A program made the translations under genes and the position numbers. This document shows positions 10,028 to 34,455 of a stretch of DNA of 64,000 nucleotides, piece by piece. Numbering within the stretch: position 1 is the first letter of the stretch; the number at the start of each line of letters is the position of its first letter. Below the pieces are notes generated by a model that worked only from the letters and a program-made list of their open reading frames with translations, was not told the DNA's origin and searched no databases. This DNA is from Gammaproteobacteria bacterium (GTDB taxonomy: Bacteria > Pseudomonadota > Gammaproteobacteria > Xanthomonadales > SZUA-36), in contig JAJRRA010000091.1 of NCBI GenBank assembly GCA_024279945.1, positions 62,001-126,000 on the forward strand. The letters run 5' to 3'.

Positions 10028-10380
10028 GTAAGAGGCCGCTTATTGCTGTAAGAGGCCGCTTGCGGCCGAAGGGCAGGTCGCGCCCAAGGGCGCTCTTACA
10101 GATCGTAAGAGGCCGCTTGCGGCCGAAGGGCAGGTCGCGCCCAAGGGCGCTCTTACAGGTCGTAAGAGGTCGCTTGCGGCCGAAGAGCAGATCGCGCCCA
10201 AGGGCGCTCTTACAGATCGTAAGAGGCCGCTTGCGGCCGAAGGGCAGATCGCACCCAAGGGCGCTCTTACAGGTCGTAAGAGGCCGCTTGCGGCCGAAGG
10301 GCGGATCGCGCCCAAGGGCGCTCTTACAGCCGAAGGGCAGATCGCGCCCAAGGGCGCTCTTACAGCGGAAGGGCGGGTCG
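10028..10380 (+). repeat. Tandem 57-bp array of REP-like palindromes
   Basis: Units of 57 bp begin at 10048, 10105, 10162, 10219 and 10276, with degenerate partial units at both ends. Each unit holds two oppositely oriented palindromes: GTAAGAGGCCGCTTGCGGCC and, inverted, the element ending GCGCCCAAGGGCGCTCTTAC. The GTAAGAG head plus GC-rich stem is the plan of REP/BIME elements mobilised by RAYT transposases. No RAYT gene is in the window. Several frames remain open across the repeats but encode only low-complexity peptides. Confidence 0.85.
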
Positions 10381-11876: not shown

Positions 11877-12049
11877 TGTAAGAGGCCGCTTACGGCCGAA
11901 GAGCAGTCGCGCCCAAGGGCGCTCTTACAAGTCGTAAGAGGCCGCTTGCGGCCGAAGAATGTAAGAGGCCCCTTGGGGCCGAAGAGCCTGATAAGTGAAT
12001 AGCGCCAGACTGACCCCCGCAGGTCGCGCCCAAGGGCGCTCTTACAGGA
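11877..12049 (+). repeat. REP-like palindrome cluster
   Basis: Three GTAAGAGGCC-type elements (about 11878, 11935 and 11961) and two inverted copies ending CGCTCTTACA (about 11929 and 12049). They lie between the convergent metB and GT9 genes, where they could act as a bidirectional transcription stop. The last copy overlaps the 3' end of the GT9 gene. Confidence 0.8.
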
Positions 12050-15271: not shown

Positions 15272-16945
15272 TTATGGTGGTGCACTATGGGTATTGGTGG
15301 CCGGTATCAGTAACTTGATGGTTTTGCCGGCCGCCCCGTTGAGCACCGCGACCCAGACGCCGTCCTGGGGCGCCAGGGTACCTTTCATACCCGATGTTAT
15401 GTCATCGAAGACATCATAACTATTGCCGTTATAAATCCACATTTCTTTTTCCATATACCCTGCGGCTTTTGCGCCACTGGGCGTGTAAGCTGTGCCGTTC
15501 ACCTCAACCCGCACATCGGCCCAGTCCACGTCAAACGAGAACACCTGGCCGATCAGGTTGAAGCGGCGGGGTTGTCCTGTCCCTGGTGGTGTCAGGCTGA
15601 TCTCGTAACAGCCTTTAACCGCCACGCAGTTGGGGTTGCTGGTATCCAGAGGCGTTGTGGTGCCGTCGACATCCCATACCGTGGTATCGAGGCTGAAGAC
15701 CCAGTAGCCTGCACCCAAAGTCATCGGCGAGCTCAGTTTCAGCTTGCTGTACGTGTCATTGATGCTATCGCGCTTGTAGACCACCCAGCGCGTGATGTAG
15801 TTTAGCGGGTTAAGGTTGTCACCCAGAATGTCCTGCACCGTATTGGCAGCCCCCGGATCACAGGGGATACCAATTACGGTCCAGCGGTCGGCCAGTACTC
15901 CGCTGCCGTAACCGCAGGCAAAGTAGTACACGTAGGCCGCACCGCAATTCGTTCCCGCAGTACAGGTCACTCCGTAAGCACCAATCAGCGCCGTGTCAGC
16001 CGAGAGGGCGACTGAATAGCCGAAAAAATCACCCGCTGCGGCATCGGAAGCAGTAAGTTTTAGTTGCTCCGACCAGATACTACCACTGCGGACAAATACA
16101 TAGGCTGTACCGCAATTACTTCCTGCGCTACAAGCAGCCTCATAGGAACCGATGATCGCGGTGTCTCCCCAGAGGGCAACCGATATGCCGAAGTGGTCGT
16201 AGGCGCTTCTATCGCCATCCGTTGTCACCAGCTTGGTTTCCACCGACACCACCGGGTCCACCGTCACCGGCCACTGCGCGTCGGCCGGGTCAAACTGAAG
16301 CTGAATGTGTCCTTGTGTGAGCCGCATTTCGGCCTGCAGGTTCTTACCCTTGGCGTCCACCACCAGCAGTTTGTCGTAGCTGAAGGTGTAGTCGCTCAGA
16401 AGGCTATCTTCTCCCCTTCGTTCTGCCACCTTGGCTTCAGGTCACCGCTCAATCGTATTGTGATTATAATGTTCTCACCGGCTGTATGGCTTGCAGGTGT
16501 GTTCGCCAGGGTAAAGCCCTGTTCCAGCCCCTCAGGGCGGTTGATATACCATATCCTGGATATTACCCCGGTCCAGGGTGACGGTATTGCCGTCCCGGTG
16601 CAGTTTTTGTGTTGGGAAAGCCTGTCGGCTGCTCAATGTCCCATAGGACTCAAGCTGCTTGACCAGAGTCTGGTCGGCTCCGCGTTTGAACGTCACCCCC
16701 TTTTCATCAAACAGAAAGTGCAGCCGATTGGCCGGGTTCTGTCCGAAAAAACGGGCGCCGATGGCAGGGTCCGTGACTGGTTCGATCAACAACCGTGCTT
16801 TGGAAAAAGTTTCCCACAGGCCCTGGGGCATTTCCGTTGCGCCGGTATTTTCCGGGCGATCCGCCGCCACGGCGGCGAATGTGTTCACCGCCATAAAGGC
16901 CGATGCGGGCAGTGCGATAGCAATGTTTTTGAGTTGATATCTCAC
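15272..16945 (-). pseudogene. Frameshifted, collapsed FG-GAP propeller gene (third paralogue)
   Basis: Homologous end to end with the 829-residue protein at 17020-19509, but broken. Compared with that copy there is one extra base near 16552 (after the codons for LDRGNIQ) and a net 10-base loss near 16396 where the paralogue encodes IAFYTKQSD. The frame is therefore closed between 16532 and 16429. Only two FG-GAP repeats remain. The signal peptide, N-terminal domain and C-terminal WTVIGIPCDPG domain are still recognisable. The last repeat looks chimeric: one half equals repeat 7 of the neighbour and the other half equals its repeat 3, as expected from recombinational collapse. Two independent lesions make sequencing error unlikely. 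Confidence 0.8.
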
Positions 16946-17019
16946 TTTTATGATCTCCCTTTGCTATCGACCCATGACCCCGGGGCAGGCTATTTTTCTT
17001 CAGCCTCCCTCAGCGGGGT

Positions 17020-19509
17020 TTATGGTGGCGGTGGCGGTGCACTATTGGTGTTGCTGGCCGGTATCAGTAATTTGATGGTCTTGCCGGCTGCCCCATTGAG
17101 CACCGCGACCCAGATGCCGTCCTGGGGTTCCAGGGTGCCTTGCATACCCGGTGTGACGTCATCCCAGACGTTGTAGCTGTTGCCGTTGTAGATCCACATT
17201 TCTTTTTCCATATACCCTGCGGCTTTCGCGCTACTGGGCGTATAGGCCGTGCCGTCCACCTCAACCCGCACATCGGCCCAGTCCACGTCAAACGAGAACA
17301 CCTGGCCGATCAGGTTGAAGCGGCGGGGTTGACCAGCCCCGGGTGGTGTCAGGCTGATCTCGTAACAGCCTTTAACCGCCACGCAGTTGGGGTTGCTGGT
17401 ATTCCGGGGTGTTGTAGTGCCGTTGGCATCCCATACCGTGGCATCAAGGCTGAAGATCCAGTAGCCTTCGCCCAAAGCCATCGGCGAGCCCAGGCTCAGC
17501 ATGCTGTAGGCATCAGTGACGGGATCGCGTTTGTAGACCACCCAGCGCGTGATGTAGTTTAGCGGGTTAAGGTTGTCACCCAGAATGTCCTGCACCGTAT
17601 TGGCCGCCCCCGGATCGCAGGGGATACCAATCATGGTCCAGCGGCTGGCCAGTACTGAGCTGCCGTAACTGCAGGGGAAGTGGTACAGGTAGGCTGCGCC
17701 GCAGTAATATCCTGCGGTACACTGCGCATTCTTGACACCGATCAGCGCCGTGTCAGCCGAGAGGGCGACTGAATAGCCGAAAAAATCACCCGCTGCGGCA
17801 TCGGAAGCAGTCAGTTTTCGCTGCTGTGACCAGCCACTGTCGGTATGGACGAACACGTAGGCGGCGTTACTACCCCTGGCCCCGATGAGCACTGTGTCTC
17901 CGGAGAGGGCAACCGAGTAGCCAAAGGAGCCTCCGCTGATGGCATCAGATGCGATAAGTTCCTGCTGGTATGACCATCTACCCAGGGTGTAGTTAAACAC
18001 ATACGCCGAGCCACTAGTGCTGAGAAAGTCACTGTGTTTTTCGACCCCGATTACCGCTGTACTTCCGGATAGGGCTACAGCGCTGCCAAAGTAGTCCCCG
18101 GTTGCCGTATCAGGGGCGATGAGTTTTTGTTCCTGAGACCAGGCACCGTAGGCACGGAGGTAGGTAAAGGCGTCGCCGGTGACTGTAAGATCCCCTGGAG
18201 CCCCGATGAGTGCTCTGTCTCCAGAGAGGGCGACCGACCTACCGAATTGGCTATTGGCTGCAGCAAAGGATTCAGCAGTCAGTTTTTGTTGCAATAACCA
18301 GGTACTGCCGGAGCGGGTAAACACGTAGGCCGCACCGCAATTCGTTCCCGCAGTACAGGTCACTCCGTAAGCACCAATCAGCGCCGTGTCAGCCGAGAGG
18401 GCAACCGAGATGCCAAAGAAGGCTTGCGTGGAAGCATCGGAGGCCATGAGTTTTTGTTGCTGTGTCCAGGCGTTACCGCTACGGGTAAACACATAAGCTG
18501 CGCCGCAATACACAATCGTCGCAGTGCAATCAACCCCTAAAGCCCCAATCAGTGCGGTGTCGCCCGAAAGGGCAACCGAACCACCGAAGGAATCACCGGC
18601 ATTGGCATCAGACGCGGTGAATTTTGCCTGCTGCGACCAGCCGCTGCCGCTGCGTGTAAACACATAGGCTGAGCCACTGTTTGCGGCCGTGTCATCATCG
18701 TTGGGAGAACCGATGAGCGCTGTATCTCCAAAGAGGGCGACCGATGTGCCGAAGTTATCGCCCGCATCCGCATCTGCCCCCACCAGCTTGGTCTCTACCG
18801 ACACCACCGGGTCCACCGTCACCGGCCACTGCGCGCCGGCTGGGTCAAACTGAAGCTGCAGTTGCCCCTGCGCCAACAGCATCTTCGCCGGCAGGTTCTT
18901 ACCCTTGGCGTCCATCACCAGCAGTTTGTCGTAGCTGAAGGCGTAGTCGCTTTGTTTGGTGTAGAAGGCTATCTTCTCCCCTTTGTGCTGCCACCTCGGT
19001 TCGAGGTTACCGCTCAGTTTCAGAGTCAGTGTAATCTCCTGCCCTGGGGCATACCCCTGCGGTGCGCCCGCCAGGGTAAAGCCCTGCTCCAGCCCCTCGT
19101 TGCGGTTGATGTACCACTCCTGGATATCGCCCCGGTCCAGCGTGACGGTATTGCTGTCGAGATATAATTTTTGCGTTGCATAAGCCTGCTCAGCACCAGC
19201 GGTTCCATAGGACTCAAACTGCATGACCAGGGTCTGCCCGGCTTCGCGTTTGAAGGTCACCCCCTTCTCATCAAACAGGAAGTGCAGCCGATTGGCCGGG
19301 TTCTGTCCGGCAAAGCGTGCGCCGATGGCAGGGTCTTTGACCGGTTCGATCATTAGCCTTGCTTTGGAGAAAGCTTCCCACAGTCCCTGGGGCATTTCCG
19401 TTGTGCCGGTATTTTCCGGGCGATCCGTTGCCGCAGCGGCGAATGCGTTTTCCGCCATAAAAAGCGATGCGGTCAGTGCGATACATATATTTTTCAGTTG
19501 ATGTCTCAT
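17020..19509 (-). CDS. Secreted protein with one seven-repeat FG-GAP beta-propeller
   Basis: 829 residues. The signal peptide (about 1-26) ends AAAA. An N-terminal beta domain follows (about 30-240; RPENTGTTEMPQGLW, NRLHFLFDEKGVTFKRE, WPVTVDPVVSVETK), a module often found before repeat regions in exported proteins. I count seven FG-GAP repeats of about 54 residues (about 243-618), each of the form FGxSVALSGDTALIGA...GSAYVFTRSG, so a single seven-bladed propeller as in integrins. The C-terminal domain (about 620-829; RWTMIGIPCDPGAAN, GYWIFSLDATVWD, MWIYNGNSYNVWDD) ends in a proline run. It is probably cell-surface or extracellular. Function unknown; adhesion or ligand binding is only a guess. 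Confidence 0.8.
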   Translation of the reverse strand: MRHQLKNICIALTASLFMAENAFAAAATDRPENTGTTEMPQGLWEAFSKARLMIEPVKDPAIGARFAGQNPANRLHFLFDEKGVTFKREAGQTLVMQFESYGTAGAEQAYATQKLYLDSNTVTLDRGDIQEWYINRNEGLEQGFTLAGAPQGYAPGQEITLTLKLSGNLEPRWQHKGEKIAFYTKQSDYAFSYDKLLVMDAKGKNLPAKMLLAQGQLQLQFDPAGAQWPVTVDPVVSVETKLVGADADAGDNFGTSVALFGDTALIGSPNDDDTAANSGSAYVFTRSGSGWSQQAKFTASDANAGDSFGGSVALSGDTALIGALGVDCTATIVYCGAAYVFTRSGNAWTQQQKLMASDASTQAFFGISVALSADTALIGAYGVTCTAGTNCGAAYVFTRSGSTWLLQQKLTAESFAAANSQFGRSVALSGDRALIGAPGDLTVTGDAFTYLRAYGAWSQEQKLIAPDTATGDYFGSAVALSGSTAVIGVEKHSDFLSTSGSAYVFNYTLGRWSYQQELIASDAISGGSFGYSVALSGDTVLIGARGSNAAYVFVHTDSGWSQQRKLTASDAAAGDFFGYSVALSADTALIGVKNAQCTAGYYCGAAYLYHFPCSYGSSVLASRWTMIGIPCDPGAANTVQDILGDNLNPLNYITRWVVYKRDPVTDAYSMLSLGSPMALGEGYWIFSLDATVWDANGTTTPRNTSNPNCVAVKGCYEISLTPPGAGQPRRFNLIGQVFSFDVDWADVRVEVDGTAYTPSSAKAAGYMEKEMWIYNGNSYNVWDDVTPGMQGTLEPQDGIWVAVLNGAAGKTIKLLIPASNTNSAPPPPP
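17665..18795 (-). repeat. Seven ~160-bp FG-GAP coding repeats
   Basis: DNA-level tandem repeats inside the 829-residue gene. Blocks such as AGCGCCGTGTCAGCCGAGAG recur between repeats and also in the pseudogene at 15272-16945, which suggests gene conversion between copies. Confidence 0.75.
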
Positions 19510-19526
19510 TTTATGCTCTACCTTGC

Positions 19527-20348
19527 CTATCGACCAACGGCCGGGGGTGGGCCATCGATGGGGTCAGATCCACTCTGCGAACTGCCGGGCTGCAGCGTTT
19601 CATCGGGGCGATGTCGCTTGGTCTTTTCGGCTTTTGGCGAACGACCAAAACGGTCTTCCAGAACCCAGCGGAAGCTGCGCACATTACGACCGTCCATATT
19701 GAACTCATAACTTTGCGGGTAACCGGAACTGACTGCATAGATGCGGTCGCCGGTCTGGGTGTCTTCCAGCCACATGCGCTCAAACAGATCCTGGGCGGTG
19801 ACCCTGCGCGGGTCCTCAAGGCGCTCACTCTCATCGGCATTCGCGTCGACCTTGCGCGCCACCAGTCGGGGCTGGTCCCAGTACAGGGTGATGTTGCGGT
19901 AGCTGTCGTCTGAATGAACCTGGAAAGACCACTGATCCAGATTGCCTCTGACCGGCGTGATCGCCCGGTTATCCGAGTTCTTTTTCTTTTTCTTTTTCTT
20001 ATTCTGGTCCAGATCTCCCGTGGCATGGAAATCACTGCTGTAGTTGCCTGGCTCCGCCCAGTCATCGTGTTCAAAAACCAGTGTCAGGTAAGGCGAACTG
20101 AAGGGGTTGAGTTCCATCAGGTCGTGCAGGTCGTAACCTTTGCGGCTGTCGTCGAGTTGGCCCAGGACGTTTCCCCGGTCGCGTATATTGTCTTCATCCG
20201 GAGCCACTACCGTCAGGCGCAGATACCACTGCGGTTCGAGGTTGGCTGCCCTGTCCTTGTGGCGCCCGGCACTGACTGAAACCGTGATCAGCAGGGCCGC
20301 CAGGGCGATAAATGTGGTGAGGAGCTTCATTATTTTCAGGTGCATCAT
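19527..20348 (-). CDS. Exported protein of unknown function with poly-lysine run
   Basis: 273 residues. A signal peptide (MKLLTTFIALAALLITVSVSA) is followed by a beta-rich domain (LEPQWYLRLTVVAPDEDNIRDRGNVLGQLDDS, PYLTLVFEHDDWAEPGNYSSDFH). An NKKKKKKKN run is encoded by a TTTTTC microsatellite on the plus strand. The C-terminal half (YDLHDLMEL earlier, then ITLYWDQPRLVAR, AQDLFERMWLEDTQTGDRIYAVSSGYPQSYEF) has no family I recognise. The tail is Ser/Pro-rich. It sits between the Tat-signal peptide gene and the 829-residue propeller gene on the same strand, 17 bases before the latter, so it is probably co-expressed with it. Confidence 0.65.
   Translation of the reverse strand: MMHLKIMKLLTTFIALAALLITVSVSAGRHKDRAANLEPQWYLRLTVVAPDEDNIRDRGNVLGQLDDSRKGYDLHDLMELNPFSSPYLTLVFEHDDWAEPGNYSSDFHATGDLDQNKKKKKKKNSDNRAITPVRGNLDQWSFQVHSDDSYRNITLYWDQPRLVARKVDANADESERLEDPRRVTAQDLFERMWLEDTQTGDRIYAVSSGYPQSYEFNMDGRNVRSFRWVLEDRFGRSPKAEKTKRHRPDETLQPGSSQSGSDPIDGPPPAVGR
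19979..20001 (+). repeat. TTTTTC microsatellite within coding sequence
   Basis: Three perfect TTTTTC units plus partial ones, encoding the lysine run. Gain or loss of a 6-bp unit would keep the frame and change lysine number by two, so it could vary length but would not switch the gene off. Confidence 0.6.
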
Positions 20349-20756
20349 AGTTTTTTCCTCATTTTCGCGAATACCGTTAAGTACCCCTGGTCGGGGGTGG
20401 TGGCCAGGACTTGGTTGGTGTGTTCGGTGGACAGCCCAGCGGCTGGGTTTGACAGGAAGTGCCGGCCGTTACCGGGGGCGCAACCCCCAGTGCGATCAGC
20501 GCAGGCGCTGCATAAACCGCTTTTTGTAGCAGTTGTCGGCGGGTACAGGATGGCCTTTTTCCTTCACGCATCATGGTGCTTTTCAGGTTTGAACTATTCT
20601 TGTTTGGGCCGGTTCTGAAGGTGCGAATTGCACCGAACCAGGGAGCGTCCATTCTGCCGGCTGGGTATTTCGCATTCAAAGTGACCAGTTACAGACCTTA
20701 AACCCTTGCACAAATCAGGCGCGAGCCGGATGACTTGGGTCAACAAAAGCAAGACC
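20341..20756 (-). repeat. Segmental duplication, intact copy
   Basis: This stretch is nearly identical to 24570-24885. It contains the upstream region and gene of the small Tat-signal protein and the start of the gene after it (MMHLKIMKL). The other copy lacks about 90 bp in the middle. Confidence 0.8.
20377..20574 (-). CDS. Small protein with twin-arginine signal and Cys/Pro-rich tail
   Basis: About 65 residues from the paired ATG at 20574. A twin-arginine-type leader TRRQLLQKAVYAAPALIALG is followed by APPVTAG and a tail TSCQTQPLGCPPNTPTKSWP rich in Cys and Pro. The frame stays open to 20679, so a longer start is possible. Short proteins of this shape occur beside surface-repeat genes in environmental gammaproteobacteria, but no function is known. 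Its whole segment is duplicated in damaged form at 24577-24870 just before the 14-repeat gene. Confidence 0.5.
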   Translation of the reverse strand: MMREGKRPSCTRRQLLQKAVYAAPALIALGVAPPVTAGTSCQTQPLGCPPNTPTKSWPPPPTRGT

Positions 20757-20836
20757 GGACAAAGGAAGGCCCCGGCACAAGCGGAGCCATCCTCAACCGT
20801 ACCCACTGTGGGGCAGGCTATTTTTCTGTCAACCCC

Positions 20837-23800
20837 TCAGGGGACGGTCGGTGGCGGTGGCCCAGGCGGTGAGCCGAAGGTGTTTCTGACCGGCACCAGT
20901 AACTTGATGGACTTGCCGGCCGCCCCATTGAATACCTCGACCCAGATACCGTCCTGGGCCATCAGGGTACCTTCCATGCCCGGTGTGGTGTCATCGAAGA
21001 CATCATAGCCGTTGCCGTTATAAATCCACATCGACTTTTCCATATACCCCGCCGCTTTCGCTCCGCTCGGCGTATAGGCCGTGCCGTTCACCTCAACCCG
21101 CACATCGGTCCAATCCACGTCAAATGAAAATACGTGGCCGATCAGGTTGAAGCGAGGGGGCTGTCCGACCCCCGGTGGCGTTAGGTTGATCACGTAACAG
21201 CCGTCAACCGTTATGCAGTTGGCATTGCTGGTGTCCCTGGCAGTCTCGGTGCCGCTGACATCCCACACCGTGGCATCCAGGGAGATGATCCAGTAGCCCT
21301 CGCCCAGCGCCATGGGTGAGGCCAGGCTCAGCAGGCTGTAAGCATCGGTTGTGGCATCGCGTTTATACAGTATCCAGCGCGAATAATAACGCGACGGGTT
21401 GAGCTGGTCACCGAAGATATCCTGCACGGTATTGGCCGCCCCCGGATCACAGGGGATGCCAATCATGGTCCACCGGTTGGCCAGCAGTCCTTTGCCGTAA
21501 CCGCAGGCAAAGTGGAGCAGGTAGGCCGCGCCGCAATAGTTCCCTAAGTTGCTGCAGGGCGTGTTCATTGCCCCAATGAGGGCAGTGTCTCCAGAAAGAG
21601 CCACGGAGGAGCCGAAAAGAGCATCGCTCCAATAAACGGAGGCCAAGAGTTTTCGTTGCTGCGACCAGGCGCTGCCGGTCCAGGTATACAAATAGGCCGA
21701 GCCGCTATGATATCCACCGGCATTACTCGTGTAAGCTCCAATGAGCACCGTGTTTGCAGAAAGGGCGACCGAGTAGCCGAAATAATCGTAGTCCGCGCCA
21801 TCGGTAGCCGTAAGTTTTTGTTGCTGTGACCAGGTGCTGCCAGTGCGGGCAAACACATAGGCCGAACCGCGATAAATACCGGTATTTTCGGCCCCGATCA
21901 GTGCCGCGTCAACCGAGAGGGCGACCGAGTTGCCAAACTGGTCACCGGCCGCCGCATCGGAGGCGGTGAGTTTTTTTTGCTGCGACCAGGTGCTGCCGCT
22001 GCGGGTAAACACATAAGCCGAACCGCTGTTGGTACCACCGTCATCATCCTGGTAGGCTCCGATCAGTGCTGTGTCCGCCGAGAGGGCTACCGAGTAGCCA
22101 AAGGCGTCAGAGGCCGCGGCATCGGAGGCGGTGAGTTTTTGTTGCTGCGACCAGGTGCTGCCGCTACGGATATACACATAGGCCGAGCCGCAACCCACGA
22201 CCGTCGTACTGCAGTCATCCTCATAGGACCCGATCAGCGCCGTGTCTCCAGCCAGCGCCACCGAGTAGCCGAAGTAGGTATAGGCTGCGGCATCGGAGGC
22301 GGTGAGTTTTTGCTGCAGTGACCAGGTACTGCCGCTGCGAGTATACACATAGGCCGATCCGCTGTCTGTCCCGCCGTCATCGTCCTGATAGGCCCCGATG
22401 AGTACCGTGTCTCCAGCCAGCGCGACCGAGTAGCCAAAGAGATCATAGTCAGCGGCATCGGAGGCGGTGAGTTTTTGTTGCTGCGACCAGGTGCTGCCGC
22501 TACGGGTAAATACATAGGCTGAGCCGCGGTCCCAGCCGCCGACATCATCAGAATAAGCAGCGATCAGAGCGGTGTCACCCGAGAGGGCGACTGCGTTGCC
22601 GAAGAAGTGTAGGGCGCGGGCATTGACCGCAGTGAGTTTTCGTTCCTCTGCCCACGTGCTGCCGCTACGGCTAAACGCATAGGCTGAGCCGCTGTTTGTG
22701 CCGCCGTCATCGTCCAGAATGGCTCCGATGAGCGCCGTGTCCGCCGAGAGGGCGACCGAAAAGCCAAAGTAATCGCTGCTCGTGGCATCGGAGGCGGTGA
22801 GTTTTTGTTGCTGCGACCAGGTGCTGCCGCTACGGTTAAATACGTAGGCCGAGCCACTGTCTGTGCCGCCGTCATCATCAGAATAAGCACCGATCAGAGC
22901 GGTGTCACCCGAGAGGGCGACCGATTTGCCGAAATAATCGTAAGTCGCGGCATCGGAAGCAGAGAGTTTTTGTTGTTGTGACCAGTTACTGCCGCTGCGG
23001 GTAAATACATAAGCCGAACCGCTGTTGGTAGCACCGTCATCATCCTGATAGGCCCCGATGAGCGCAGTTTCTGCAGATAGCGCCACCGAGTTGCCAAAGA
23101 AATCATTTGGCGCGCCATCGGCAGCGGTGAGCTTTTGTTGTTGCGACCAGATGCTGGCGCTGCGGGTAAAAACATAGGCCGATCCACAATTTGCTCCGGC
23201 AACGCAATCATCACTACTGGCCCCGATGAGCGCGGTATCTGCATCAAGAGCGACCGAGTCGCCGAAGTAATCAACGGCCCCGGCATCGGAAGCAGTGAGT
23301 TTTGCTTGTTGTGACCAGCTGCTGCCGGTGCGGGTAAACACGTATGCCGAGCCACAATCCAGGATCGTCGCGCTGCAGTCATCCCTATAGGCCCCGATCA
23401 GCGCCGTGTCTGCCGAGAGGGCGACCGATTTGCCGAAATAATCGTAAGTCGCGGCATCAGAAGCAGTGAGTTTTGCTTGTTGTGACCAGCTACTGCCAGT
23501 GCGGGTAAACACGTATGCCGAGCCACAATCCAGGATCGTCGCACTGCAGTCATCCCTAAAGGCCCCAATCAGCGCCGTGTCTGCCGAGAGGGCGACCGAG
23601 TAGCCAAAAAAATCAGCATTTATGGCATCGGAGGCCGTGAGTTTTCCCTGGAAAACCCAACCGCCGCCGGTAGTGCCAAACACATAGGCCGAGCCACAAT
23701 TCAGGATCGTCACACTGCAATCATCGTTAAGGGCTCCAATCAGCGCCGTGTCCGCCGAGAGGGCAACCGAGTAGCCAAAGTTATCATTAGTCGCGGCATC

Positions 23801-24574
23801 ATTATCCGCCCCCACCAGCTTGGTCTCAACCGATACCACCGGATCCACCGTCACCGGCCATTGTGCCCCGGTCGGGTCAAACTGAATCTGCAACTGCCCC
23901 TGCGCTAGCAGCATTTTCGCCGGCAGGTTCTTGCCGTTGGCATCCACCACCAGCAGTTTGTCGTAGCTGAAGGCGTAATCGCTTTGCTCTGTGTAGAAGG
24001 CTATCTTCTCACCTTCGCGCTGCCACCTCGGCTCCAGGTCGCCGCTCAATTGTATTTTGAGCACGATGTCCTCACCGGCCGTATGGCCGGCGGGTTTATC
24101 CGCCAGCGTGAAGCCCTGTTCCAGCCCCTGTGCGCGGTTGATGTACCATTCCTGGATATCGCCCCGGTCCAGGGTGACGGTGTTGCCGTCCAGGTGCAGT
24201 TTTTGTGTTGGAAAAGTCTGCTGGTTGCTCCTTGTCCCGTAGGACTCAAGCTGCATGCCCAGGCTCCAGTCGCTGCCGCGCTTGAAGGTCACGCCCTTCT
24301 CGTCAAATAAAAAGTACAGCCGGTTAGCCGGGTTCTGTCCGGCAAAGCGTGCACCGGAAGAGGGGTCTTTGACCGGTTCGATCAACAGCCGTGCCCTGGA
24401 AAAAGCTTGCCACAGGCCCTGGGGCATTTCCGTTGTGCCGGTGTTTTCTGGGCGATCCGCCGCCACGGCTGCAAATGCGTTCGCCGCCATAAATGCCGAT
24501 GCGGTCAGTGCGATGCAAATGGTTTCGAGTTGCTGTTTCATCATGATGAGCTTCATTATTTTCAGGTGCATCAT
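20837..24574 (-). CDS. Secreted protein with fourteen FG-GAP repeats (two predicted propellers)
   Basis: 1245 residues from the ATG at 24574, which has GAGGGA upstream; the open frame runs on to 24820 through a damaged duplicate of the small Tat gene. The first residues MMHLKIMKLIM derive from the duplicated leader and are joined to the usual signal peptide (MKQQLETICIALTASAFMAANAFA). The N-terminal beta domain spans about 35-248, followed by fourteen FG-GAP repeats (about 249-1025) and the C-terminal RWTMIGIPCDPG domain. Some blades have acidic loops (YQDDDGGTNSGSAYVF, possibly Ca2+-binding) and others paired cysteines (DDCSATILDCGSAYVF). Fourteen is twice the seven of its neighbour. The role is probably extracellular but unknown. 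Confidence 0.8.
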   Translation of the reverse strand: MMHLKIMKLIMMKQQLETICIALTASAFMAANAFAAVAADRPENTGTTEMPQGLWQAFSRARLLIEPVKDPSSGARFAGQNPANRLYFLFDEKGVTFKRGSDWSLGMQLESYGTRSNQQTFPTQKLHLDGNTVTLDRGDIQEWYINRAQGLEQGFTLADKPAGHTAGEDIVLKIQLSGDLEPRWQREGEKIAFYTEQSDYAFSYDKLLVVDANGKNLPAKMLLAQGQLQIQFDPTGAQWPVTVDPVVSVETKLVGADNDAATNDNFGYSVALSADTALIGALNDDCSVTILNCGSAYVFGTTGGGWVFQGKLTASDAINADFFGYSVALSADTALIGAFRDDCSATILDCGSAYVFTRTGSSWSQQAKLTASDAATYDYFGKSVALSADTALIGAYRDDCSATILDCGSAYVFTRTGSSWSQQAKLTASDAGAVDYFGDSVALDADTALIGASSDDCVAGANCGSAYVFTRSASIWSQQQKLTAADGAPNDFFGNSVALSAETALIGAYQDDDGATNSGSAYVFTRSGSNWSQQQKLSASDAATYDYFGKSVALSGDTALIGAYSDDDGGTDSGSAYVFNRSGSTWSQQQKLTASDATSSDYFGFSVALSADTALIGAILDDDGGTNSGSAYAFSRSGSTWAEERKLTAVNARALHFFGNAVALSGDTALIAAYSDDVGGWDRGSAYVFTRSGSTWSQQQKLTASDAADYDLFGYSVALAGDTVLIGAYQDDDGGTDSGSAYVYTRSGSTWSLQQKLTASDAAAYTYFGYSVALAGDTALIGSYEDDCSTTVVGCGSAYVYIRSGSTWSQQQKLTASDAAASDAFGYSVALSADTALIGAYQDDDGGTNSGSAYVFTRSGSTWSQQKKLTASDAAAGDQFGNSVALSVDAALIGAENTGIYRGSAYVFARTGSTWSQQQKLTATDGADYDYFGYSVALSANTVLIGAYTSNAGGYHSGSAYLYTWTGSAWSQQRKLLASVYWSDALFGSSVALSGDTALIGAMNTPCSNLGNYCGAAYLLHFACGYGKGLLANRWTMIGIPCDPGAANTVQDIFGDQLNPSRYYSRWILYKRDATTDAYSLLSLASPMALGEGYWIISLDATVWDVSGTETARDTSNANCITVDGCYVINLTPPGVGQPPRFNLIGHVFSFDVDWTDVRVEVNGTAYTPSGAKAAGYMEKSMWIYNGNGYDVFDDTTPGMEGTLMAQDGIWVEVFNGAAGKSIKLLVPVRNTFGSPPGPPPPTVP
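21500..23830 (-). repeat. Fourteen ~166-bp FG-GAP coding repeats
   Basis: Tandem coding repeats, several almost identical at DNA level: the pair at about 23270-23620 encodes DDCSATILDCGSAYVF twice with few differences. Many units share GTGAGTTTTTGTTGCTGCGA. Such identity implies recent unit duplication or gene conversion and makes copy number likely to vary between strains. Confidence 0.8.
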
Positions 24575-24576
24575 GG

Positions 24577-24870
24577 TTTTTCCCTCATTTTCGCGAATAC
24601 CGTTAAGTACCCCTGGTCGGGGGTGGCGGCCATGATTTGGTCGGTGTGTTCGGTGGACAGCCCTTTTTAAGAGCTGTCGGCGGCTACAGGATGGCCCTTT
24701 TCCTTCACGCATCATGGTGCTTTTCAGGTTTGAACTATTCTTGTTTGGGCCGGTTCTGAAGGTGCGAATTGCACCGAACCAGGGAGCGTCCATTCTGCCG
24801 GCTGGGTATTTCGCCTTCAAAGCGGCCAGTTACAGACCCTAACTCTTGCACAAATCAAGTACAAGCCGGA
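24577..24870 (-). pseudogene. Damaged duplicate of the small Tat-signal gene
   Basis: Near-identical to the intact copy at 20377-20720, but about 90 bp are gone after the codons for SRRQLLK. The hydrophobic core and the Cys/Pro tail are lost, and the remaining sequence reads through in frame into the 14-repeat gene. It now serves at most as that gene's leader. Apart from this nothing is seen between 24870 and 24896. Confidence 0.7.
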
Positions 24871-34296: not shown

Positions 34297-34455
34297 CGGG
34301 TCGGGTCGCCCGCAAGCGGGCTCTTACGGTGAGAGCTCCCCTGGGCGCGACGGGCTTGTGAGGTTGCACGCCGGTCGCCCGCAAGCGGGCTCTTACTGTA
34401 AGAGCGCCCTTGGGCGCGACGGGCTTGTGAGGTTGCACGCCGGTCGCCCGCAAGT
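34297..34455 (+). repeat. REP-like palindrome cluster between tRNA-Leu and the acyltransferase gene
   Basis: A ~70-bp unit occurs twice and begins a third time: GTCGCCCGCAAGCGGGCTCT, then TAC, then a GTAAGAGCGCCCTTGGGCGC-type element, then GGGCTTGTGAGGTTGCACGC. These are opposed REP palindromes with the same GTAAGAG head as the arrays at 10.0 and 11.9 kb but a different stem (CCCGC/GCGGG). Between 34194 and 34296 I see nothing else. Confidence 0.8.

Follow-up and report, generated by a model that had tools for sequence, protein, structure and literature searches.

Bacterial integrin-type β-propellers have been described as proteins in which seven FG-GAP repeats make up one propeller, and some of these proteins carry 14 repeats, which were read as a tandem pair of propellers (Chouhan et al. 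2011, PMC3192720). Work on repetitive β-propellers holds that propeller amplification has no counter and that the blade number is set afterwards (Pereira and Lupas 2022, PMC9218822). Lasso clusters with HPr-like kinases (BsfK type) combine a YxxPxL leader motif with the kinase residues H-G-G-G-K-S-D-D; in one lasso system, YxxPxL substitutions left phosphorylation unaffected and only a triple substitution impaired leader removal (PMC10368454). Here, we analyzed a cluster of exported propeller proteins within a 64-kb stretch of DNA (referred to as the window) and compared it to these systems. The propellers are of a known kind and follow an unusually clear 7/14 rule, and we regard the linkage of a detached domain, a small RR peptide and PqqD/kinase genes as the more interesting result. 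Our searches of the literature on HprK-related kinases, on PqqD with twin-arginine peptides and on FG-GAP proteins in secretion returned no description of this linkage, nor of these PqqD/HPr-like-kinase gene sets.

The cluster contains three paralogous genes that share an N-terminal domain, an FG-GAP block and a C-terminal GIPCDPG domain, as an earlier sequence-only reading had proposed, and the RR peptide and the 273-aa exported protein lie amid them where that reading had placed them (Table 1). In the direction of transcription, the 1245-aa gene is followed by the genes for the 65-aa RR peptide, the 273-aa protein and the 829-aa protein and by the broken paralogue. Gaps of ~29 and ~17 bp separate the RR-peptide, 273-aa and 829-aa genes, an operon-like layout. 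The Pfam model FG-GAP_2 (PF14312, curated cut-off 23) scored 338 bits for the 829-aa protein, 813 for the 1245-aa protein and 105 for the broken copy. It marked 7, 14 and 2 stretches, respectively; direct parsing of the repeats concurred, so that the counts first read by eye, including the broken two-repeat copy, were borne out, and the chance expectation for them is effectively zero. Pfam assigned no family to the 273-aa protein or the RR peptide, NCBIfam and PADLOC gave no name to the former, and PADLOC gave none to the propellers. The poly-Lys partner that had been listed proved to be a real stretch of seven lysines, located inside the 273-aa protein. The signal peptides of the exported propeller proteins were read in the sequence and the fold is predicted; these proteins may be located at the cell surface.

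Table 1 Features of the propeller gene cluster (positions within the window).
Feature	Position	Strand	Remarks
1245-aa exported protein gene	20837-24574	-	Signal peptide, N-terminal domain, 14 FG-GAP_2 repeats, GIPCDPG domain
14 FG-GAP_2 repeats of 1245-aa protein	21497-23803	-	
GIPCDPG domain of 1245-aa protein	20867-21472	-	
829-aa exported protein gene	17020-19509	-	Signal peptide, N-terminal domain, 7 FG-GAP_2 repeats, GIPCDPG domain
7 FG-GAP_2 repeats of 829-aa protein	17653-18777	-	
GIPCDPG domain of 829-aa protein	17032-17640	-	
Broken paralogue	15272-16945	-	2 FG-GAP_2 repeats, GIPCDPG domain intact; N-terminal domain with frameshift and stops
273-aa protein gene, apparent signal peptide	19527-20348	-	Stand-alone WYxRL domain
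WYxRL domain of 273-aa protein	19653-20237	-	With inserted Lys7 run
65-aa RR peptide (CTRRQLLQKAVYAAPALIAL..., Pro-rich tail)	20377-20574	-	
Duplicate of 20318-20701 (leader, RR-peptide gene, 273-aa gene start)	24544-24842	-	93-94% identity

To describe the fold, we used structural models. The model of the 829-aa protein superposes onto the integrin α4 headpiece with a Z-score of 42.1 and an rmsd of 2.7 over 351 residues (model residues 209-585; Foldseek match with E 4.7e-13). It thereby matches the whole integrin alpha propeller, in line with the expectation that seven repeats make one propeller, and the model supports a single integrin-type seven-bladed propeller. The model of the 1245-aa protein was poor (pLDDT 52), with chains of Fbw7 as top structural matches (Z 25.7). 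Fbw7 is an eight-bladed WD40 ring. Based on the counts, the 14 blades of the 1245-aa protein would form two rings of seven. The calcium-binding motif DxDxDG (D-x-[DN]-x-D-G) is absent from the 829-aa and 1245-aa proteins, which are therefore integrin-like in fold and not integrin-type in the strict sense of PMC3192720. They share with that set the seven repeats per propeller and the existence of 14-repeat members, but the proteins selected in 2011 have DxDxDG in every blade, whereas the blades of the window belong to FG-GAP_2 (PF14312) and have none. Beyond that study, we measured the 7/14 rule and the turnover of blades and describe the gene-cluster partners. By analogy with VCBS/integrin-like propellers (PMC9218822), the ligand of the propellers is likely a carbohydrate or a protein.

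A phylum-wide search for FG-GAP_2 at E 1e-21 returned only the source genome (G000), and the repeat survey was then limited to the same order, with two loci from other phyla (L102 and L103) added; repeats were counted in full-length arrays. Among 56 complete contiguous arrays with at least five repeats, 38 have 7 repeats and 18 have 14; no such array has any other number. Grouping at 60% identity left 36 groups, of which 23 contain seven-repeat arrays, 12 fourteen-repeat arrays and one both. Every array counting 9, 10, 11 or 12 repeats ends at a contig end. The exceptions, with fewer than five repeats or irregular spacing, are the window pseudogene, the fragmented L079, the short three-repeat L078 and the irregular L143; further ones (L076, L152, L167 and L169) are diverged members whose repeats are poorly scored by the model. 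The proposed quantisation in sevens thus held, and we saw neither a random repeat number among relatives nor neighbours that never co-occur, the two outcomes that had been named as speaking against the sequence-only reading.

The same survey bears on the idea that we are looking at a decaying cluster in a draft assembly, with the repeat numbers and the broken copy being partly assembly artefacts. The source genome is indeed a draft of 91 contigs, the two-repeat copy carries a frameshift, and long tandem repeats would be difficult to assemble. However, the 56 arrays that fall on 7 and 14 come from many genomes, and even arrays as long as 770 residues keep an open reading frame, at dN/dS values of ~0.2; we consider this explanation very improbable.

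The sequence-only reading had further suggested that the family may diversify by adding whole propellers, which would make the cluster an extracellular system for adhesion or recognition whose binding surface grows in steps of seven blades. Counts of exactly one and two times seven and the integrin-like fold agree with this idea, but the missing DxDxDG motif and the relationships among the blades do not. Within the 1245-aa array, DNA identity is 68% at lag 7 vs 74% at lag 1, and the closest pair are the adjacent blades 2 and 3 (90% DNA identity). Similarity between repeats i and i+7 was found neither in this gene nor in the 17 other 14-repeat arrays; over all 18, a repeat of the first half finds its closest second-half match at i+7 in 1.2 of 7 cases, with 1 expected by chance. 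Moreover, the blades of the 829-aa protein do not match those of the 1245-aa protein by position, although the two proteins share 79% identity in their flanks. Lacking a lag-7 signal, the addition of whole propellers is unsupported, and we regard such an adhesion system as improbable. An ancient doubling that was afterwards erased by blade exchange is possible.

The blades instead show a faster turnover than the domains on either side. The final blade of the broken copy (15958-16045) is a mosaic of blade 7 and blade 3 sequences from the 829-aa gene (17715-17802 and 18351-18438), identical to them in stretches, a sign of exchange between paralogues. Together with the likeness of adjacent blades and the lost positional match, this indicates that single blades or parts of blades are copied and exchanged while their number returns to a multiple of seven. 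Folding would hold the blade number at multiples of seven while single blades duplicate and exchange. Such a process fits the general view in PMC9218822, with which it shares blade-by-blade amplification, decay of young copies and convergence on a preferred number; unlike the survey reported there, which found many numbers, complete FG-GAP_2 arrays here have only 7 or 14. FG-GAP_2 arrays offer a clean case of a copy number limited to 7/14 although the repeats are duplicated and swapped singly, a restriction that bears on the evolution of closed folds whose intermediates should not fold.

Outside the blades, the 829-aa and 1245-aa proteins are 78-79% identical with a dN/dS of 0.18-0.22, and both are therefore under purifying selection; values of 0.18-0.25 over flanking domains and blades likewise indicate purifying selection. 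The broken copy loses its frame in the N-terminal domain and is later back in frame, with stops in between, and we thus regard it as a pseudogene, barring an assembly error at this point. Its C-terminal domain is 86% identical to the counterpart in the 829-aa protein. A longer ORF at 20837-24820 (1327 aa) was rejected as a gene since it runs across a disrupted second copy of the RR-peptide gene, and the start at 24574 (1245 aa) is the plausible one. This start falls where the beginning of the 273-aa gene is duplicated at 94% identity, within a segment of ~300-380 bp that is present twice (Table 1). In the upstream copy, an 85-bp deletion at ~24663 breaks the RR-peptide frame, and this copy now contributes the start codon of the 1245-aa protein as well as its first residues. 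The signal peptides of the paralogues, thought at first to be identical, are therefore not quite alike. The DNA identity of the two propeller genes (~80%) is below that of the duplicated segment, which was thus probably copied after these genes had split.

The 273-aa protein is the detached third domain (WYxRL) of the same exported architecture. A WYxRL homologue directly follows GIPCDPG in one polypeptide in two proteins of contig C26 of the source genome (G000:C26) and in relatives. L102 (a Holophagae MAG) encodes FG-GAPx14-GIPCDPG-WYxRL as a single chain of 1422 aa, and L179 (G547) encodes FG-GAPx9-GIPCDPG-WYxRL in one chain with the array cut by the contig end. L161 and L164 show a protease-GIPCDPG-WYxRL order, the N-terminal part of such members being reprolysin-like or subtilisin-like. 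In L167 and L169, a stand-alone WYxRL protein adjoins propeller-type proteins, as in the window. These fusions suggest that the WYxRL domain acts together with GIPCDPG proteins. Used as a neighbourhood query, the N-terminal domain gave little information, since it precedes varied large proteins. The neighbours do co-occur in relatives, but the link runs via the C-terminal and 273-aa domains and not, as had been proposed, via the N-terminal one. An exported protein family without a Pfam domain becomes accessible through the RR peptide and the detached WYxRL domain, which link it to PqqD/HPr-like-kinase gene sets.

In the proteins at L101:10345-12462 and L163:6713-8626, the GIPCDPG and WYxRL domains are preceded by a zinc-protease-like HELGH motif; Pfam did not recognise the HELGH-motif protein of L101, the one scanned. 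The 14-repeat propeller of L102 (JAUXDC010000129.1), on a contig binned as Holophagae, is ~49% identical to the window protein and comes complete with N-terminal, GIPCDPG and WYxRL domains, pointing to inter-phylum transfer or mis-binning. The source genome also encodes a 7-repeat FG-GAP_2 protein (L100:7468-10719, G000:C74) that ends in an apparent IPTL-CTERM sorting signal, unlike the three window paralogues.

We then asked how the RR peptide is distributed. A profile built from five peptides of WYxRL loci was run on 39 genomes of the family and gave 12 matches in 8 of them, all 8 among the 13 genomes that encode WYxRL. The overlap corresponds to a hypergeometric p of 2e-5, with the seeds included and with related genomes that are not independent. 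Eleven of the 12 matches lie within 2.5 kb of a WYxRL domain, or 6 of 7 once the five seeds, originally found by looking beside WYxRL genes, are left out. The RR peptide is thus tightly linked to WYxRL genes; this conserved linkage does not bear on the chemistry. Peptides of the family have RRxLLxKAxYxAPxLxxL in common, and the RR together with a hydrophobic stretch is conserved in 12 family members, one having KR. The window peptide matched no NCBIfam model, the Tat model TIGR01409 included, and one class-level relative passes TIGR01409.

Genes for peptide modification are frequent neighbours of the peptide. A PqqD-type protein and an HPr-like kinase lie beside it in L164, L167, L169 and L173, either of the two alone in L163, L172 and L175, and PqqD with an Asn-synthase-like protein in L101 and L161/L183. 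An NTP_transf_5 protein is often present in those family loci that have modification genes. Among class-level genomes, L196, L197 and L199 combine the peptide with PqqD and/or kinase, and the peptide loci L195, L198 and L200 have no PqqD or kinase alongside. In the kinase-type family loci, the RR peptide is the only short RR/YxAPxL ORF recognised beside PqqD, and the kinases keep H-G-G-G-K-S-D-D as in lasso precursor kinases. A weak PADLOC match of one kinase to mad8 (E 7e-4) looks like a P-loop match. We found no PqqD, kinase, Asn-synthase-like, cyclase or NTP_transf_5 gene in the window and no HprK-like gene in the source genome. A PqqD/Asn-synthase pair at G000:C26 adjoins a second RR peptide and the two GIPCDPG-WYxRL proteins, and any role of peptide modification here would therefore need this pair.

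Among the closest described systems are the BsfK-type lasso clusters (PMC10368454), with which these loci share YxxPxL, a PqqD-type B1 protein, the kinase residues and, in some loci, an Asn-synthase-like protein. In contrast to lasso precursors, the RR peptides lack a conserved penultimate Thr/Ile/Val, Gly1 and acceptor Asp/Glu, although YxAPxL is present in nearly all of them; no cyclase was found in the kinase-type loci, and the partners are large exported proteins. The window peptide has an apparent lasso core (Thr at -2, Gly1), which we rejected, as these residues are not conserved in relatives and an acceptor residue is missing. The PqqD and Asn synthase of G000:C26 reach 58 of 80 and 399 of 525 bits, respectively, and stay under the lasso model cut-offs. 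A full lasso B1/B2/C set was found only in G024, with precursors of its own, and the RR-peptide loci do not qualify as lasso-system loci. The HPr-rel-A system (NCBIfam TIGR04352/TIGR04353) resembles them in that a PqqD-like protein adjoins an HprK-related kinase, but the members here score far under the curated cut-offs for HprK_rel_A and PqqD_rel_X (kinase at most 72 of 200 bits, PqqD at most 22 of 35 bits) and fall outside that system.

The G024 locus encodes two lasso-type precursors at L183:2382 (+) and L183:7029 (+) (e.g. WQQPKLGQLYLKHTKGGPVVGPGEIDGF); with the PqqD, the Transglut_core3 protease and the pair of Asn-synthase-like cyclases next to them, they probably form a lasso cluster with two products. 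Since the PqqD-B2-cyclase set sits there with two ordinary lasso-type precursors, the RR peptide of that locus may be a bystander.

Two readings of the whole cluster carry most weight. According to our preferred one, to which we give close to an even chance, extracellular propeller proteins are linked to a PqqD-guided peptide modification and export system; linkage and motifs point to the modification and export steps. The exported architecture comprises an N-terminal beta domain, an integrin-like FG-GAP_2 propeller of 7 blades, or of 14 blades read as two rings of seven, and GIPCDPG, with WYxRL detached as the 273-aa protein, plus the RR peptide. In the cytoplasm, the PqqD-type RRE would bind the RR peptide via its YxAPxL motif, and a partner enzyme would modify it, of the kinase type in most relatives and the Asn-synthase-like protein with PqqD at G000:C26. 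The modified peptide would be exported through Tat by its RR motif and, outside the cell, would work with the propeller/GIPCDPG/WYxRL proteins, which would serve as a scaffold for binding on the cell surface or farther out.

The second reading takes the propeller proteins for ordinary FG-GAP_2 proteins, exported to the cell surface or beyond it and duplicated locally, with the RR peptide being a small Tat-exported operon protein and the PqqD, kinase and lasso genes unrelated neighbours. We consider this a real contender, somewhat short of even. FG-GAP_2 proteins with 7 or 14 repeats are widespread, and integrin-type proteins with these repeat numbers are known in bacteria (PMC3192720). The failure to find modification genes in the window, the separate lasso-type precursors beside PqqD/B2/cyclase in G024 and the TIGR01409 match of the class-level peptide also agree with it. 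On the other hand, most loci of the family and three class-level genomes have a PqqD or HprK-like gene next to the peptide, and no other short RR/YxAPxL ORF was recognised at PqqD in the kinase-type family loci. A stronger version of our preferred reading would take the set for an undescribed maturation and export system, in which a PqqD-type RRE would recognise short RR/YxAPxL peptides; after modification by a lasso-type HPr-like kinase or by an Asn-synthase-like enzyme plus nucleotidyltransferase, these would leave the cell through Tat and serve outside it with propeller or protease proteins that bear GIPCDPG and WYxRL; we hold this to be rather doubtful.

Elsewhere in the window, positions 10048-10329 consist of tandem 57-bp palindromic units (GTAAGAGGCCGCTTGCGGCCGAAGGGC...GCGCTCTTAC; 4.9 copies, 95%), which also occur at 34304-34454 and 11934-11985. 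Similar-looking tandem units in G000:C26 adjoin an ORF that resembles a REP-associated transposase (L101:1624-2694), and the 57-bp units look like a REP-type mobile repeat.
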